This document shows, one piece after another, positions 616-38,596 of a stretch of 39,136 nucleotides of DNA. The notes beneath the pieces are model-generated. The model made no database searches. It had not been told where the DNA came from and worked only from the letters and a program-made list of their open reading frames with translations. Source of the DNA: Parcubacteria group bacterium GW2011_GWA2_43_13 (GTDB taxonomy: Bacteria; Patescibacteriota; Patescibacteriia; UBA9629; GWA2-43-13); assembly GCA_000999025.1 (NCBI GenBank), contig LCFM01000010.1, forward strand, positions 1 to 39,136. The letters are read 5' to 3'. Numbering within the stretch: the stretch's first letter is position 1; the number at the start of each line of letters is the position of its first letter. The position numbers and the translations under genes are program-made.

Positions 616-635
616 ACGTTAGATGTTTTTTGTTA

Positions 636-654
636 TTTGTTTCTTGTTTTTTGT
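636..654. repeat. 19-bp inverted repeat, right copy
   Basis: Plus-strand copy of TTTGTTTCTTGTTTTTTGT, exactly inverted relative to 208-226. The four-helix-bundle gene is the only gene between the two. Confidence 0.6.
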
Positions 655-710
655 CAAAAACGACACTTATCCACTTCTCAAAAAGATATCAATCCATTAA
701 GATACCAGAT

Positions 711-2768
711 ATGAAAATGCTTGTCGTGTCTATCGCGCTTCTTGTCGCGATAGTTGGAGTATATTTTATCAGATACGAGAACGCAAGTGCCCAAAATTCA
801 CACCTCGTTTTTACCGAAATCATGTATGATGCCGAAGGCAGTGATACAAAACGAGAATGGATAGAAATATATAACCCAACCGATACACCAATCACCATTA
901 TCGAAGGCGCGGGCGATGGGAGCTGGCGCTTTTTTGATTCATCAAACCACACACTTACACTTATTACAGGCAACGCACTCATCCCGCCAGAAGGCGTTGC
1001 CATTATAGCAAGCGACAACGCGACATTTATTGCCGAACATCCCTCATTTTCCGGTACGCTCTTTGACACAACTATGTCACTAAACAACACATCAGCAAAT
1101 CTAAAATTATCCAATGATAAAGGCGCGACATATTTTGAAACACTCACCTATGCGTCTGACTGGGGCGGCGCAGGCGATGGCTTTTCATTAGAAAAAATTG
1201 ATACCGACGAAACAAATGACACATCGAATTGGAAACAAAGCGCGTATAAAGGAGGATCTCCCGGAGAAGTCGTCATCGCATCCTCTCAACCACAAAATCA
1301 ACAAAATACATATCCACTACCATCATCAGACGAATCATCTCCACCGCCATCATCGCCAAACGTATTTTTCCCCGAAGGTATTGCGATAAACGAACTCTAT
1401 CCATGGCCGCGCGATACTGAAGACGAATTTATTGAGCTTGCCAACCACACAGAACAAGCCATTGATATTTCATTATGGATAATTTCCGATTCAAGCGGAA
1501 AAAAATACACTATTCCCCAACAAACAACTATTCCATCATACGGATTTATAACACTCTATCGAGAAAAAACAAAAATTGTTCTCAATAACAGTAATGATAC
1601 TATCTCTCTTATTTTCCCATCGTCAAAAATCACGTCAAAAACATCATATACCCAAGCAAGACAAGGAATATCATGGGCGCGAAATGAAGAAGATGAGTTT
1701 CAATGGTCAAAAATACCCACGCCGAACGTAATCAATGTATTTCCTCTGCCACCGTACGCAACCGTAAAAGCAGATCCCCTTTTTGCTGACATCAACCAAC
1801 CAATCACTCTCGATAGCACCGGATCTATCGGTACGATTTTAGAATGGAATATCCCAGACGCACCGATTTTTACAACACCAAAACTTTCATACGCATTCTC
1901 AATACCCGGTAATTATCCAATCACCCTGACTGCAAAAAATTCAATCGGCGAAACAGCCCAACAGAGCGTAACCATAACAGTGATTGATCAAAGCAAACCT
2001 GACATCTCAATTCTCATCCCTCAAACAAAACACACAGATATCATTCTTTCAGAACTTTTGCCAAACCCAATTGGCAATGACAAAAACGAATGGATCGAAA
2101 TCTATAACCCAACATCTGCCACGGTTGATATCACCAACTGGGCAATCGGGAAAGAAGAAGATGCGCGGAATGCGTATGTGATTTCAGATCAAACAACTAT
2201 CGCGCCCGGGACATATCTTATTATTCCGCGTATATTATCAAAGATTACCCTTATCAACACAGCTGATACTGTTTATTTTTTTGATGCGAAAAAGAATATT
2301 GCAGATAAAATCACCTATAGCGAGAGTGAAGAGGGCGCAAGTTTTGCGCGAGATGCAGATGATATATGGTTATGGACATACACACCTACACCAGGAGAAG
2401 CAAACAAATTTGCTGAAAAATTCACCCCAACTCCGATGTCTCTTTCATCTGCTTCATTAGAACCCCAATCAACTGATCCTATAATTGTTGATCTTTCGGA
2501 CATTCGCGATATTGAAAATGGGACAATAATAACCACCGAAGGCGTGGTTACTGTCCAGCCGAAGATATTCGGCACAACTCAATTCTATATCATGAGCGAC
2601 GCAGGCATTCAAATATATTCCGCATATTACAGTACTTGCGCAAGGAACACCCGCCGCTCCTCAAGAGATAGCGATTGCAGATATATCTCAAAACGAAAAA
2701 GGCGTGCTTATCACTTTTTCAGGAACAGTATTAGAAACATCCGGACGCACCATTTTTGTGCGAGATGA
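711..2768 (+). CDS. lamin-tail-domain surface protein, N-terminal part (frameshifted)
   Basis: The start at 711 is chosen because it begins a clear signal peptide (MKMLVVSIALLVAIVGVYF then ASAQ); upstream in-frame codons are T/G-rich repeat. Domains in order: LTD1 (about residues 29-190, TEIMYDAEGSD...EWIEIYNP), LTD2 (220-345, INELYPWPRDTEDEFIEL), a PKD-like domain (348-425, ending YAFSIPGNYPITLTAKN), LTD3 (440-565, LSELLPNPIGNDKNEWIEIY) and the start of an OB-like domain (590-640, TTEGVVTVQPKIFGTTQFYI). Downstream of GIQIYS near 2620 the frame becomes arginine-rich nonsense while frame +1 resumes a sensible protein, so the last 45 or so codons are out of frame. LTDs are found in exported bacterial proteins and nucleases. 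The intact protein would be secreted and anchored by the membrane helix encoded at 2704-3129. Confidence 0.85.
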   Translation: MKMLVVSIALLVAIVGVYFIRYENASAQNSHLVFTEIMYDAEGSDTKREWIEIYNPTDTPITIIEGAGDGSWRFFDSSNHTLTLITGNALIPPEGVAIIASDNATFIAEHPSFSGTLFDTTMSLNNTSANLKLSNDKGATYFETLTYASDWGGAGDGFSLEKIDTDETNDTSNWKQSAYKGGSPGEVVIASSQPQNQQNTYPLPSSDESSPPPSSPNVFFPEGIAINELYPWPRDTEDEFIELANHTEQAIDISLWIISDSSGKKYTIPQQTTIPSYGFITLYREKTKIVLNNSNDTISLIFPSSKITSKTSYTQARQGISWARNEEDEFQWSKIPTPNVINVFPLPPYATVKADPLFADINQPITLDSTGSIGTILEWNIPDAPIFTTPKLSYAFSIPGNYPITLTAKNSIGETAQQSVTITVIDQSKPDISILIPQTKHTDIILSELLPNPIGNDKNEWIEIYNPTSATVDITNWAIGKEEDARNAYVISDQTTIAPGTYLIIPRILSKITLINTADTVYFFDAKKNIADKITYSESEEGASFARDADDIWLWTYTPTPGEANKFAEKFTPTPMSLSSASLEPQSTDPIIVDLSDIRDIENGTIITTEGVVTVQPKIFGTTQFYIMSDAGIQIYSAYYSTCARNTRRSSRDSDCRYISKRKRRAYHFFRNSIRNIRTHHFCAR

Positions 2769-3129
2769 TTCAGACGCAGAGATAAAAGTATATTATAAAG
2801 ACGGCATTGAAAAACCAAAAATGTCCGAGAATATGGCAATTACCATAACAGGCGTTGTAAGCGAAACGTCGTCCGGCCTGCGTGTCTTGCCTCGCATGAG
2901 CGAGGATACTATACTAACATCAGCAGAACCTATTGAGGCAGAGCAAACAAATGAAGAAGTAGCTGGCATTCGATTACAAGAAACAACGCAAATCCCCAGC
3001 GCATTGCCACAAAAACAACAATCATTCCCCCCTCTGGTTTTTGCCTCAATCGGACTTGGCATTCTTTCAATCGTACAAACAGCAGTGATTGTATATCTCC
3101 TCAAACGAAAACCCCCTCCTCCATCCTGA
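2704..3129 (+). CDS. C-terminal part of the LTD surface protein (OB-fold plus membrane anchor)
   Basis: This frame is open from 2596, and the residues before the GTG at 2704 (LAQGTPAAPQEIAIADIS) already look like genuine coding sequence, so it is best read as the continuation of the gene at 711. It holds an OB-like domain (LITFSGTVLETSGRTIFVRD ... ITGVVSETSSGLRVLPR), an acidic linker, and a C-terminal membrane helix (PLVFASIGLGILSIVQTAVI, then KRK) that would anchor the extracellular LTD protein. Related LTD proteins carry two complete OB units; here the second half of the first appears to be missing, so a deletion that is not a multiple of three is more likely than a one-base slip. As an independent gene it would lack a signal peptide. 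Confidence 0.7.
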   Translation: MLITFSGTVLETSGRTIFVRDDSDAEIKVYYKDGIEKPKMSENMAITITGVVSETSSGLRVLPRMSEDTILTSAEPIEAEQTNEEVAGIRLQETTQIPSALPQKQQSFPPLVFASIGLGILSIVQTAVIVYLLKRKPPPPS

Positions 3130-5396: not shown

Positions 5397-6143
5397 TTAT
5401 TTTGCCAACTTCCATAACAGCTCAAAAGAATCAAGGTATCCTTGTGCAACTGCTGAATTCTTTATTTGAATAATAGTCAGAGACGGCTGATAAATTTCTA
5501 TTGAAACCATGCCCTCGGTTATGCGTGTATATATTGGAGAAGATAATCCTTGTGGAATAACTTTTAATTCTGTCTTCCCTTCTTTGGCAAATTTCTCTTT
5601 AAACTCTCGAGAATATGATGCTGGTGCCACAAGTCGTTTTTTTATATCTTTCTGTTTTAAAAGGTTCCGGTAAGCTTCATACCACCCTCCTATGGCGGTA
5701 TAAAAATCAGTATCAGAAGCGCCACCAATAATACTAATCTGTTTTGATTTACATCGAGCTACTGATTCAACCACTTCCTGTAAGTTCGTAATAAATCCCT
5801 CATGCCCTACTAACGTTCTTACCTCAACCGCAGTATCTCCGGACAATTGAAGTTGTCTCAAAAGTGGTACTAATTCATGTGCTGTATCATGTAACTGATT
5901 TATTTTTTCTAAAAAAATATCAGGATCTCCTGCCTGAAAAAGCTTGATCCGTTTTTTTTGATGAACAGTCACATACCCTTTATCAACAAGTTCATTAAGA
6001 GCATTGTAAACCAACATTCTATGTAATTTCGCTTTTTTAATTATTTCACCCGCCTGTGTTAATCCCAACTCCAATAAAACAAGATAAACGGTTGATTCAT
6101 TTTTTCCTAATCCCAAGGATGTTAATTGCACTTTTATATTCAT
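5397..6143 (-). CDS. TrmB-family HTH transcriptional regulator 1
   Basis: The ATG 6143 is preceded by GAGGGTACT and gives 248 residues. The N-terminal winged helix (VQLTSLGLGKNESTVYLVLLELGLTQAGEIIKKAKLHRMLVYNALNELVDKGYV) is followed by a helical linker and a C-terminal sensor-like region (GHEGFITNLQEVVESV ... ISIIGGASDTDFY) of the kind seen in TrmB-like proteins. Family members bind palindromic operators and often sense sugars or other small ligands; the ligand here is unknown. It is divergent from a methyltransferase gene, with two palindromes and a promoter between them (6179-6244), so auto- and cross-regulation is likely. Three other TrmB-like genes occur in the window. Confidence 0.85.
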   Translation of the reverse strand: MNIKVQLTSLGLGKNESTVYLVLLELGLTQAGEIIKKAKLHRMLVYNALNELVDKGYVTVHQKKRIKLFQAGDPDIFLEKINQLHDTAHELVPLLRQLQLSGDTAVEVRTLVGHEGFITNLQEVVESVARCKSKQISIIGGASDTDFYTAIGGWYEAYRNLLKQKDIKKRLVAPASYSREFKEKFAKEGKTELKVIPQGLSSPIYTRITEGMVSIEIYQPSLTIIQIKNSAVAQGYLDSFELLWKLAK

Positions 6144-6178
6144 AGTACCCTCTATTATAACATACCAGGAATCTGTCA

Positions 6179-6244
6179 TCAATAGCTATTGACAAATTTA
6201 AACACATACTACATACTAACATTAGTCATCACTTATTGATGACT
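6179..6244 (+). promoter_or_regulatory. promoter with two palindromic operators between TrmB-1 and the methyltransferase
   Basis: TTGACA at 6189-6194 with a CATACT -10 at 6212-6217 (17-bp spacer) points toward the methyltransferase. The perfect palindrome TCAATAGCTATTGA (6179-6192) overlaps the -35. A second inverted repeat, AGTCATCA-N5-TGATGACT (6224-6244), covers the start region. GGAGG at 6250-6254 is the ribosome site. Both repeats are candidates for TrmB-1 binding. Confidence 0.65.
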
Positions 6245-6261
6245 AAAATGGAGGATATAAC

Positions 6262-35429: not shown

Positions 35430-35461
35430 GATAACAAAGGGTTAATACCCTTTATGTTATC
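35430..35461. terminator. terminator hairpin spanning the TrmB-3 stop
   Basis: GATAAC-a-AAGGGT-taat-ACCCTT-t-at-GTTATC forms an 11- to 12-bp interrupted stem that includes the TrmB-3 stop codon. A second hairpin (GCGAAGAGCAAA ... TTTGCTCTTTCG) precedes it. Confidence 0.55.
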
Positions 35462-36195
35462 TCGTCGCACATATCCCACATAAATTGAAACCATGTGCGT
35501 ACGTCATCAGCGATTTGCTGGTTGATAATCATAGAGAACGAGATATTTTCATCAAAGTCACCGGTTTTAAGGCCAGTAAAGACCCCCATGTGGTCTCCGA
35601 AAGCTATGAGGGTTGATTTTGTCGGGTACTTTTCTGGGAGAAACCGGTAATCTGAATTGAGGTAGCCAGCAAAAGAGGTTCCACGCACGCTTGGATCATA
35701 GAGAACATGAAACACGATGCCTTTCTTTTGTATCTCGCGCTCAAAGTTTAGCATTGGGCCCTTAAGTTTTGGACTACTCCATGCGCTTTTTGCGCCGATG
35801 CCGTAGATATCTTTGCCTACGCGGAGAATGTCATTGATATAATTTTTCCAGCCCTCAATGCCTTTGTATATAAAGACCTCATTTTTATGCGGTGTGCCGG
35901 AATAGAGTTTTTCGAGGTCCGGCAGGATTTTTTCTATTGCTTCTTTTTTTTCTTCCACAACCTCCAGTAATTTTTTCGGAGGCACGGCTTGGTAGCGTCT
36001 CTCGTTTCGCCCAATAATTTCAAAAACAAGGCCTTTTTCTGTAAGACGGCTAAGCGAATCGTACACATTTCTGCGATTGACGCCGGAGTTTGTTGCGATT
36101 GCGCCGACAGATGACTCGCCATGCTCCAAAAGCGTCTCATAAATACGCGCTTCATTCTGTGCAAGCCCTGCTTCGCGGATAATTTCGGTAAACAT
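35452..36195 (-). CDS. TrmB-family HTH transcriptional regulator 3
   Basis: The 247-residue protein has the winged helix IIREAGLAQNEARIYETLLEHGESSVGAIATNSGVNRRNVYDSLSRLTEKGLVFEII, the YQAVPPKKLLEVVEEKKEAIEK linker and a sensor domain with IYKGIEGWKNYINDILRVGKDIYGIGAKSAW. It is a close paralogue of TrmB-4 at 37730 (shared YKGIEGWKN-I-DILR-G-D-Y-IGAK-AWS block and the INQQIADxxRTWFQxMWD end). Its own promoter carries a perfect ATGATATATCAT palindrome (36240-36268), so negative autoregulation is likely; the porin-like gene is divergent and may share this control. Confidence 0.87.
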   Translation of the reverse strand: MFTEIIREAGLAQNEARIYETLLEHGESSVGAIATNSGVNRRNVYDSLSRLTEKGLVFEIIGRNERRYQAVPPKKLLEVVEEKKEAIEKILPDLEKLYSGTPHKNEVFIYKGIEGWKNYINDILRVGKDIYGIGAKSAWSSPKLKGPMLNFEREIQKKGIVFHVLYDPSVRGTSFAGYLNSDYRFLPEKYPTKSTLIAFGDHMGVFTGLKTGDFDENISFSMIINQQIADDVRTWFQFMWDMCDEIT

Positions 36196-36239
36196 ATTGT
36201 GGTGATAAGTATTGCCTCGTGGCGATATTTACCACTCAA

Positions 36240-36268
36240 AGTATATGATATATCATTGGGCTTGTCAA
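36240..36268 (-). promoter_or_regulatory. TrmB-3 promoter with palindromic operator
   Basis: Minus strand TTGACA (36268-36263), exactly 17 bp, TATACT (36245-36240). The spacer contains the perfect 12-bp palindrome ATGATATATCAT (36245-36256) touching the -10. Confidence 0.75.
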
Positions 36269-36302
36269 CATAAGTGTTTGGGTCATAAAAGGAGTGGAAA
36301 CG

Positions 36303-37076
36303 ATGTTGAAGTACATTGCTATGGCTATGGCGTTGGTGGCTTTCGTGACGGTTAATGCGGAGACCGTCGTGAAACCGTACGGGTTTGGGAGTGTGTCTGT
36401 GCCGATGGACGGCGGCGGCGAATACGCGCTCCGATGGGCGCGGGTTGGCGCGAATGTCAATCCTCGCCCGTGGATGCGGATCCATACCGAGTACGACATT
36501 GCAACGTCGAAGCTATCTTATGGATACGCAGAGGTTGCTACGGATGTCGTTGGCGTGCGCGGGACGATTGCCGCTGGGCAGATGCTTAGCCCTGTTGGGT
36601 ACTTGTACCCGGGGCCGGCGATACTTGAGCTGACGTGCTGGCCGGATACACTGTCGGCTTACGCATTGCGTAACACCGGCATTGTGGTGTCTGCGAGTGG
36701 GGAAGAGTGGATCGTGCGCGTCTCCTGGTATGCAGAGCATCAACTGTCAGCGACAGCGACCTATAAGAAGGCATCGCTGTTCTGGCAGAAGGGTGCCGGT
36801 GGCGGAGCGATCATGCAACCCATTCTGATTCATCGCTATTTTCAGCCAAGTGCCGGAGTATCGGTGGAAACAGTGGAAACCGTTGCGTTCGTTCAAAACC
36901 GCGCCACAATCACTCCGTGGCTGAAAGCGTATGTTCAAGCGGATTACCATTCCGCAGAAGATGGTGTCTCAACCCTTTTGGGACTAACCGCGACATACGC
37001 ACCCCGATCGTTCGTCAAACTGTTCTGGGACGGAAAGGAGGAGACGTTCAAAACCGAAATAACGTTTGCGTTTTAG
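36303..37076 (+). CDS. exported porin-like beta-barrel protein
   Basis: ATG 36303 has AAGGAG eight bases upstream, better than the GTG at 36294. A signal peptide (MLKYIAMAMALVAFVTVNAE) precedes a chain of amphipathic strands (KPYGFGSVSVPMDGGGEYALRWARVGANVNPRPWMRIHTEYDIA, AGQMLSPVGYLYPGP, LRNTGIVVSASGEEWIVRVSWYAEHQ, WLKAYVQADYHSAEDGVSTLLGLTATYAP) and a final TEITFAF with C-terminal phenylalanine. The GQ-x-x-P-G-Y and RNTGI-x-x-S segments resemble phosphate-selective porins O/P, which sit in outer membranes. GC content is far above the neighbours, suggesting transfer. A membrane-exposed beta-barrel in a CPR-like genome is unexpected. Confidence 0.7.
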   Translation: MLKYIAMAMALVAFVTVNAETVVKPYGFGSVSVPMDGGGEYALRWARVGANVNPRPWMRIHTEYDIATSKLSYGYAEVATDVVGVRGTIAAGQMLSPVGYLYPGPAILELTCWPDTLSAYALRNTGIVVSASGEEWIVRVSWYAEHQLSATATYKKASLFWQKGAGGGAIMQPILIHRYFQPSAGVSVETVETVAFVQNRATITPWLKAYVQADYHSAEDGVSTLLGLTATYAPRSFVKLFWDGKEETFKTEITFAF

Positions 37077-37113
37077 GTGAGGTCTAATCCCCCCTCAAAA
37101 AAACGCAAAAATG

Positions 37114-37141
37114 CTCCGGTGCACGATGGCCGGAGTTTTTT
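37114..37141 (+). terminator. terminator of the porin-like gene
   Basis: CTCCGG-N10-CCGGAG followed by TTTTTT: a textbook intrinsic terminator 38 bp past the stop. Confidence 0.85.
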
Positions 37142-37142
37142 A

Positions 37143-37172
37143 TTGACAGATATATTATAGTTATATAAGATA
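37143..37172 (+). promoter_or_regulatory. toxin-antitoxin promoter
   Basis: TTGACA at 37143-37148 is followed at the right spacing by TAAGAT or a shifted TATACT (37181), within an AT-rich near-palindromic stretch (TATATTATAG...CTATAC) typical of antitoxin operators. Confidence 0.4.
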
Positions 37173-37205
37173 TATACTATACATAGTATTAAAATAGAGT
37201 ATTAT

Positions 37206-37484
37206 ATGACAACTCAAGTAATTTTTAAAATTGATAAAACATTAAAAGATAGGGCAATGAAGAAAGCTCAACAAAAAGGGATTCCTTTTTCCGCGGTTTT
37301 AAAACTTGCCACAAAGGCGTTTGTGGATGATCGGTTGGATATTGATGTTGCAATGCAACCGCAACTGAATGAAAAAACACGGAAAATGTTGAAACAAGCG
37401 GTAGAAGATATTAAACAAGGGAAAAATCTTTCTCCTGTTTTTGATAACGCGCGGGATATGAATAAGTATCTTGATTCGCTATGA
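37206..37484 (+). CDS. RelB/DinJ-type antitoxin
   Basis: The 92-residue protein has the RHH-type N-terminus of DinJ/RelB antitoxins (TTQVIFKIDKTLKDRAMKKAQQKGIPFSAVLKLATKAFVDDRLDI) and a basic, disordered toxin-binding C-terminus. It binds its own promoter and neutralises the toxin encoded immediately downstream by a 4-base (ATGA) overlap. Lies between two TrmB paralogues. Confidence 0.9.
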   Translation: MTTQVIFKIDKTLKDRAMKKAQQKGIPFSAVLKLATKAFVDDRLDIDVAMQPQLNEKTRKMLKQAVEDIKQGKNLSPVFDNARDMNKYLDSL

Positions 37485-37741
37485 AAATATTCTTGCATCG
37501 AAATTTTGAAAAACAATACCAAAAATTGCGCAAAGGAGAAAAGTTGAAATTTAAAGAGCGTCGAAATGTATTTTTGCGAGATCCGTTTTCTCTTGAATTA
37601 AGAAATCATGTACTGCGTGGACAGTATGATGGGTGTAGAAGTATTGATATTACTGGTGATTTGCGCGTAATTTATAGGGAAGAGGGTGGCGGCATCGTCT
37701 CCTTCCTTGCCATTGGTACGCATTCTGAATTATACGGATAA
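37481..37741 (+). CDS. YafQ/RelE-type mRNA-interferase toxin
   Basis: The 86-residue protein shows the RelE-superfamily pattern of YafQ: FLHRNFEKQYQKLRKGEKLKFKERRNVFLRDPFSLELRNHVLRGQYDGCRSIDITGDLRVIYREEGGGIVSFLAIGTHSELYG, with the LRNHxLxGxxxGCRSIDITGDLRVIY and GTHSELY catalytic blocks. It cleaves mRNA in the ribosomal A site. The end overlaps the convergent TrmB-4 by 12 bases. Confidence 0.92.
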   Translation: MKIFLHRNFEKQYQKLRKGEKLKFKERRNVFLRDPFSLELRNHVLRGQYDGCRSIDITGDLRVIYREEGGGIVSFLAIGTHSELYG

Positions 37742-38506
37742 GGTGGTTTCGTTTTCCTCGCTCACATCCCACATCAATTGAAACCATGTGCGGAAAGCGT
37801 CCGCAATTTGCTGGTTGATGACAACAGTGAGCGAGGCATGTTCATCAATGTGAGAGAATCCGATATTGGAAAGCAGGACAGTGCGATCTCCGAATATCTC
37901 TATCCCAACACTTGTTGGGTATTTTTCTGGCATAATTTTATAGTGGAGGTTGTTGTTTTTATTCAATAAAGAAATATTTAAGTCCACCTCTTGTAGTGCC
38001 TGGTGTTCGTAAATGACATAAAGTTGCATGTTCTTTTTTGTAAATTCTTTGGTCGCTTGTTCTACCGTAGATCGTAGCCGTGGATCGCTCCACGCGCCTT
38101 TTGCTCCGATGACATACACATCCTGTCCTATGCGCAGGATATCCCGAATATTATTTTTCCAACCCTCAATGCCTTTATAAATATATACAGATTCTTTTGC
38201 CGGCGTTGTGTTAAACATTTTTTCTAAATCCGGCATTGCGCTTGCGATTGCCTGTTGTTTTTCTTGGATAAATTCCGCGAGTTTATTGGGATGAACCGCT
38301 TGATAGCGGTTTTCTTTGCTTTCTAAAATTTCAAATACCAGCCCTTTTTCCAAAAGCCGATTAAGCGTGTCGTATACATTTCGGCGATGAATGCCAGATT
38401 TTTGCGATATCGCGCCTACCCCAAGCTCACCCTCTTTTACTAAGGTCTCATAAATTTCCGCCTCATTTTTTGCCATGCCTAATGTTTGAAAGAGTTCTGT
38501 GTACAT
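37730..38506 (-). CDS. TrmB-family HTH transcriptional regulator 4
   Basis: From ATG 38506 (MYTELFQTLGMAKNEAEIYETL) the 258-residue protein has the TrmB winged helix with GAISQKSGIHRRNVYDTLNRLLEKGLVFEIL, the YQAVHPNKLAEFIQEKQQAI linker and the sensor block IYKGIEGWKNNIRDILRIGQDVYVIGAKGAWSDPRL. It is a paralogue of TrmB-3. The upstream start at 38524 would begin inside a repeat element and is rejected. Its leader and the 3' end of the DUF559 gene are shaped by a repeat (38523-38596). Confidence 0.87.
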   Translation of the reverse strand: MYTELFQTLGMAKNEAEIYETLVKEGELGVGAISQKSGIHRRNVYDTLNRLLEKGLVFEILESKENRYQAVHPNKLAEFIQEKQQAIASAMPDLEKMFNTTPAKESVYIYKGIEGWKNNIRDILRIGQDVYVIGAKGAWSDPRLRSTVEQATKEFTKKNMQLYVIYEHQALQEVDLNISLLNKNNNLHYKIMPEKYPTSVGIEIFGDRTVLLSNIGFSHIDEHASLTVVINQQIADAFRTWFQLMWDVSEENETTLSV

Positions 38507-38522
38507 AGTGGAAAGCCGAAAC

Positions 38523-38596
38523 ACACCCCTTAATCCCCTCTCAAGAGGGGAAAACGCATCGTTTTTCCCTCCTTGAGGAGGGATTAAGGGAGGTGT
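38523..38596. repeat. palindromic element with terminal inverted repeats, left copy
   Basis: ACACCCCTTAATCCC at one end pairs with GGGATTAAGGGAGGTGT at the other; inner hairpins CCCTCTC-aa-GAGGGG and TCCCTCC-ttga-GGAGGGA. A matching copy lies at 39025-39101 in the same orientation. Confidence 0.75.

Follow-up and report, generated by a model that had tools for sequence, protein, structure and literature searches.

A predicted 16-stranded porin fold in an undescribed protein family of a CPR class without detectable Omp85

The porin-fold gene analysed here lies in the window, i.e. the whole stretch of DNA under study, which is an entire contig of 39,136 bases from a CPR genome of 971 kb (93.5% complete, 0.87% contaminated). 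Judging from two structure predictions, its product very probably has a porin fold. Sequence comparisons indicate that it belongs to an undescribed family, patchily distributed within a single CPR class, which we take to be ABY1. Porins characterise outer membranes, and an Omp85 protein for assembling their barrels is expected in diderm lineages. A porin-fold family in a class described as monoderm and devoid of detectable Omp85 would therefore imply either an unrecognised outer layer or the export of a pore into other cells, and either answer would alter the picture of how dependent CPR bacteria meet their hosts.

The gene, its product and the predicted fold

The features of the locus are the following (positions in the window, strand).

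35452..36195, minus: divergent TrmB-family regulator, possibly a local regulator (Pfam match to PF01978, 61.2 bits)
36228..36256, plus: promoter-like site of the porin-fold gene, TTTACC-17-TATCAT, 9/12 (promoter scan)
36240..36268, minus: promoter-like site of the TrmB gene, TTGACA-17-TATACT, 11/12 (promoter scan)
36245..36256, no strand: perfect 12-bp palindrome ATGATATATCAT, a candidate operator overlapping both -10 boxes
36290..36294, plus: Shine-Dalgarno-like AGGAG, read from the sequence
36303..37076, plus: porin-fold gene, 257 aa (open reading frame, family and predicted fold)
36303..36359, plus: signal peptide of 19 residues with an AXA-like VNA^ET site, by inspection
36360..37073, plus: mature barrel of 238 aa with 16 predicted strands (AlphaFold2, pLDDT 78.7, pTM 0.71)
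36588..36668, plus: loop after strand 5 (mature residues 77-103), at the position of the porin constriction loop L3 (AlphaFold2 and alignment)
37065..37073, plus: C-terminal Phe-Ala-Phe, beta-signal-like (sequence)
37113..37136, plus: intrinsic-terminator-like stem-loop with a GC stem and a T-run (terminator scan)

The open reading frame and its C-terminal FAF are present as the original prediction had described them, and so is the signal peptide, read by inspection as MLKYIAMAMALVAFVTVNA^ET. An alternative start, an in-frame GTG, is found at 36294, three codons 5' of the start retained here. Ala, Val, Gly and Thr are abundant among the 238 mature residues. By inspection, an export signal peptide is found in the 14 aligned members of the family, the N-termini of the other 13 being, by eye, similarly hydrophobic. 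The motif originally given as GQ-x-x-P-GY does exist in the protein with another spacing, GQ-xxx-P-x-GY (GQMLSPVGY). The stem and T-run of the proposed terminator were likewise recovered; since 1.1 terminator-like sites are expected in a shuffled stretch, the site is plausible and represents no statistical surplus.

The porin-like barrel proposed from the sequence received strong support from structure prediction and from structural matches. AlphaFold2 was run on two four-row alignments, and a 16-stranded barrel, in which strand 5 is followed by a loop with helical turns, was obtained both with the mature window protein and three relatives (job 1; pLDDT 78.7, pTM 0.71) and with an alignment led by a relative 30% identical to the window protein (job 2; pLDDT 77.0, pTM 0.70). 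The five models of each job do not agree equally well, their pLDDT running from 78.7 to 34.3 in job 1 and from 77.0 to 38.6 in job 2. Foldseek retrieved 32 PDB chains at E<=0.001 with the job 1 model and 56 with the job 2 model. Among the matches listed (all 32 of the former and the best 50 of the 56 of the latter), the titles all designate porins or outer-membrane proteins, with the exception of two artificial metalloproteins (9j9n and 9j9l) matched by the job 1 model. VIA-align gave a Z of 19.4 to OmpT for the job 1 model and of 19.7 to OprP and OprO for the job 2 model, with PorB, OmpC, OmpU and OmpF at about 18-19. The top BFVD match of the job 1 model comes from a phage and bears the name phosphate-selective porin O and P. 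The predicted models thus combine the structural traits of 16-strand porins, namely an antiparallel barrel, a match over most of the chain and a constriction loop. The loop after strand 5 contains a conserved P-x-P and R-W-P-D region, in which 13 of the 14 members have a conserved Arg and the window protein alone has Cys in its place; its confidence is low (pLDDT about 45-55, low at residues 88-99) and its exact path is uncertain.

The alternation of the strands, also part of the original prediction, was evaluated on the 16 predicted strands. With the Kyte-Doolittle scale, the hydropathy difference between strand faces reaches 2.57 versus 1.54 +/- 0.28 in shuffles, and no shuffle attained the observed alternation, either for the single sequence (0/5000) or for the mean of the 14-member family (0/5000). 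The alternation is weaker on the Wimley-White interface scale, where 375 of 5000 shuffles attained it for the single sequence and 34 of 5000 for the family. When the faces of the predicted strands are assigned by hydropathy parity rather than from coordinates, 17 of the 21 well-conserved strand positions (conservation in 11 or more of the 14 members) fall on the polar, lumen face. They include R47, E63, D65, Y75, G92 and D214, among which R47, E63 and D214 are invariant and D65 is kept in 13 of the 14 members. A conserved inside with a freer outside is the pattern expected from selection acting on a pore.

The C-terminus is less uniform. An aromatic-x-aromatic motif lies close to it in 12 of the 14 members and at its extreme end in 5 of the 14, and the full GxxPhiXPhi, described as the beta-signal of E. 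coli (PMC13067283), is found in a single member.

Distribution of the family and its gene neighbourhood

Searching with the single protein retrieved relatives in three other genomes out of 57, with E-values of 1e-17 to 1e-30; an additional match in G010 (E 0.119) was not recovered by profiles and was set aside. A profile of four rows matched 14 of the 380 genomes of the class, and a profile of 14 rows, built from members of 13 genomes, also matched 14 of the 380; in 13 the E-value was no higher than 1.1e-75, and in G295 it was 1.7e-6. A match of the first class search in G258 (E 0.002) was lost with the better profile and dropped. The G295 member (L068) is divergent, with an open frame of about 365 aa. 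G266 carries two copies, the second of which (L020), 505 aa long, has a long N-terminal extension of roughly 200 residues ahead of the barrel. Members are spread across the families of the class and are 24-34% identical to the reference member, five of them forming a cluster with 54-63% identity among themselves. Only 3 of the 11 inner branches of the gene tree are well supported.

Scanning genome contigs with two peptide patterns revealed three loci, two of them titled as CPR and one as 'bacterium': a 'Ca. Komeilibacteria' CG11 contig (L022), a 'Parcubacteria group' FeB_17 contig (L023) and SI048_bin106 (L021), whose proteins were recognised by eye as the G185, G008 and G266 members, respectively. 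The Komeilibacteria relative, from the same class as the window genome, agrees with the CPR setting originally deduced from the sequence. No relative outside the class was retrieved in searches of limited reach covering 379 genomes drawn from the phylum, plasmids, viral contigs and the two-pattern contig scan. The draw of 379 genomes gave two matches, both already known and both of the same class, and the viral contigs gave none with the single protein or with alignments of five or four rows. The plasmid tblastn matches (18% coverage, E 0.03) correspond to an annotated IS5 transposase and were rejected.

Sequence databases returned only chance-level matches, whether the window protein was compared with Pfam, the 14 members with Pfam, NCBIfam and PHROGs, or the single protein and the profile with PDB sequences, a thermolysin (0.14) being the chance match of a PDB search. 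None of the 14 members matched a porin family of Pfam or NCBIfam above the curated cut-off, the best match of any kind having an E of at least 0.05.

A conserved operon around the barrel gene could be ruled out. Besides the barrel, four gene clusters are common to three loci each; two of them are neighbours within one genus, and two lie at differing distances and on differing sides. On the SI048_bin106 contig, two large repeat-bearing putative surface proteins of 658 and 934 aa (L021:9879-14776) are located about 1 kb downstream of the porin-fold gene. In the window, a long surface-type ORF (630-2768) seemingly resumes in another frame (2704-3129), giving 630-3129 the appearance of a frameshift-like split.

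The porin-fold gene and the TrmB gene form a divergent pair, 107 bp apart. The promoter-like site of the TrmB gene is near-consensus and that of the porin-fold gene, facing it, is weaker; nine promoter-like sites were counted in 36150-37250 versus 1.9 expected. The palindrome ATGATATATCAT has its sole copy in the window here. As it overlaps both -10 boxes, the original suggestion that a TrmB operator governs both genes is plausible for this locus. It does not extend to the family: none of the ORFs called at the 13 remaining loci proved to be a TrmB relative, which rules out a conserved TrmB partner. Such a control would be local, and TrmB does not belong to the conserved features of the system.

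Other features of this kind surround the gene. A second TrmB-family regulator, 49% identical to the first, is encoded downstream at 37730-38524, and the two regulators flank the porin-fold gene together with a toxin-antitoxin-like pair (37206-37741). The second gene of this pair matches YafQ_toxin (PF15738, 44 bits) and ParE_toxin, and the first, at a position typical of antitoxins, has no Pfam match. Further away, a palindrome with 10-bp arms, TTAGTCATCAATAAGTGATGACTAA, at about 6222-6246 precedes another TrmB gene (5397-6182) and is a stronger inverted repeat than the one adjoining the porin-fold gene.

Place of action and origin of the barrel

The original prediction had left two alternatives, that the gene had been transferred and its product serves at the surface of the cell or on a host, or that a route of beta-barrel assembly remains in these bacteria. 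The second was not borne out by the searches for known machinery. No Omp85 was matched at E<=10 in the genome of the window, where a search for BamA-like proteins had originally been suggested, nor in any of the 13 member genomes at E<=1, and none of the 380 class genomes gave a match over the cut-off. Three matches below the cut-off appeared spurious by eye, one lying in a virus-like protein and two in frames with an internal stop. The control search exceeded the cut-off in E. coli, Caulobacter, Synechococcus, Thermus, Deinobacterium, Bacteroides and Thermotoga, and it thus reaches distant diderms. POTRA domains, TolC-type proteins and LpxC, which would point to an LPS-type outer membrane, were equally without a match over the cut-off in the 13 member genomes. 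Among the four weak POTRA or TolC-type matches, L049 and L050 resembled, by eye, an SMC-like and an HlyD-like protein, and L051 and L052 (E about 0.5) stayed below the cut-off.

A function on the cell surface or on a host is the leading interpretation. The gene product would be exported by Sec as a 16-stranded beta-barrel with the fold of general porins and would form a real, water-filled pore, with selection bearing on a lumen lined by Arg47, Glu63, Asp65, Tyr75, Asp214 and the loop after strand 5. We tentatively favour, as the most likely site of action, the outer membrane of another, diderm cell (a host or a neighbour), from which small solutes would leak through the porin to the dependent CPR cell. 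This site is preferred because no outer membrane of their own could be recognised in these bacteria, because the gene is patchy in a class which shows no Omp85 and whose members, like CPR bacteria in general, depend on partners, and because 12 of the 14 members keep aromatic-x-aromatic near the C-terminus, with no BamA detected in their own genomes that might read it. Two routes of insertion may be considered. Some porins and pore-formers insert directly into membranes, and the barrel could enter the host membrane in this way; or the BAM complex of the host could read the C-terminal aromatic signal. BAM inserts from the periplasmic side, so that a porin released outside the host would first have to get through the outer membrane there, or else insert by itself. 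This topology runs against the host membrane as the site, as do two observations: the full E. coli-type signal is found in only one of the 14 members, with the aromatic motif at the extreme end in only 5, and no secretion or delivery gene conserved with the family was found next to it at the family loci. The complete scenario, in which single-membrane CPR epibionts export a dedicated porin that becomes inserted into a diderm host's outer membrane, possibly with the help of the host BAM, is somewhat more doubtful than the site itself. If true, it would make the host surface a leaky source of nutrients, a new way of parasitic feeding, and the barrel family would be evolving without an assembly machine of its own.

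The closest rival to a pore in the host membrane, and one not much less probable, is that the bacteria possess an atypical outer membrane or lipid layer which holds the porin, assembled spontaneously or by some Omp85-free process not yet recognised. The Mycolata, for instance, have pores in their outer membrane and no Omp85. The signal peptide, the porin fold, the conserved lumen and the C-terminal aromatics would all fit a resident porin, and the lack of known genes is no proof of a lacking membrane. The absence of matches over the cut-off for Omp85 throughout the class, and for POTRA, TolC-type proteins and LpxC in the member genomes, argues against such a layer, as does the presence of the gene in merely 14 of the 380 class genomes, a distribution so scattered that the gene can hardly encode the principal pore of a common envelope. 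The phylum is moreover called monoderm in two papers (PMC11665869, PMC12857230).

It is improbable that the protein is a secreted component of the wall or S-layer, acting as an adhesin, a shield or a scaffold, which has a porin fold and forms no membrane channel. The second G266 copy has an N-terminal extension such as a tethered protein might have, and no membrane that could hold the barrel was recognised; a pore nevertheless agrees better with the lipid-type alternation of the strands and with an interior that is polar and conserved while the exterior varies more.

The base composition of the gene bears on its origin. As originally claimed, it is unlike that of its neighbours: the codon comparison gave GC1/2/3 of 0.57/0.47/0.62 versus means of 0.53/0.36/0.40 for the 38 other window genes, and its GC3 is the highest of the 39 window genes, with a standard deviation of 0.06 among the others. 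When this protein was re-sampled with the codon usage of the window, its GC3 came to 0.434 +/- 0.028, which indicates that the anomaly is synonymous and real and rules out amino-acid composition as its sole cause. At the 14 family loci (the window and L021-L033), where neighbouring GC3 spans 0.21 to 0.59, the GC3 of the member exceeds the mean of the mechanically called neighbour ORFs in 13 cases, with z>=2 in 11; the loci below this value are L025 (1.35), L029 (1.72) and L030 (-0.12). The EF-Tu gene has a lower GC3 than the barrel gene in 11 of the 12 genomes whose EF-Tu frame was verified (G283 being the exception, and G266, the thirteenth, being left out), which rules out that the high GC3 is due to codons optimised for high expression. 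Since a divergent family keeps this pattern, a recent transfer does not explain it either.

It is accordingly most improbable that the gene was recently acquired from a GC-rich diderm, which would be one form of the transfer originally envisaged, or that it results from contamination of the assembly and is uninformative on CPR biology: its high GC3 is the one point in favour, against which stand 13 other class genomes with relatives, the 24-34% identity of members to the reference across the families of the class, the family-wide elevation of GC3, the lack of relatives outside the class in the limited searches above, and, as regards contamination, the family spread together with the location of several members inside contigs of 222, 241, 344 and 698 kb.

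Comparison with known porins and pores

A close likeness is that to the general porins (OmpF, OmpC, OmpT and OmpU, PorB of Neisseria and the Rhodopseudomonas blastica porin, 1PRN), with which the window protein shares, in the predicted models, the 16 strands, the strand-5 loop, the polar lumen and the C-terminal aromatic, the match reaching a Z of about 18-19.6 over about 220-245 residues and a Foldseek E down to 3e-7. It differs from them by an identity of about 7-15%, by the lack of a Pfam or NCBIfam porin match in the family, by a mature chain of only 238 aa and by its occurrence in a bacterium without detectable Omp85.

OprP and OprO are the best structural match of the job 2 model (Z 19.7, 14% identity; 3.1 and 3.0 A over 244 residues), but the PDB profile search gave no match to them at the sequence level. 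They are also longer, with 411-426 aa versus about 240-260 aa in the family, and have an arginine ladder, whereas the conserved lumen-side residues of the family carry mixed charges (R, E, D, D).

OmpM1, the attachment porin of Veillonella parvula (8BYM), has the same barrel fold (Foldseek E 2.6e-6 with the job 2 model). Veillonella parvula is a diderm Firmicute of the Terrabacteria lineage, with an LPS outer membrane and Omp85 relatives; unlike OmpM1, the window protein has no room for an SLH-type tether. PorB of Neisseria is a host-directed porin which acts on host membranes, and the likeness to it (Z 18.6-19.1) is one of fold alone. The MspA-type pores of mycobacteria and corynebacteria occur, like the present family, in bacteria without Omp85, where they are placed in a mycolic-acid outer membrane, but their fold differs from that of the window protein.

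The literature search brought up no work on CPR porins or on outer-membrane barrels in these bacteria. The fold itself is a classic one; what is new, as far as this search shows, is the family, the lineage which carries it and its setting without Omp85.
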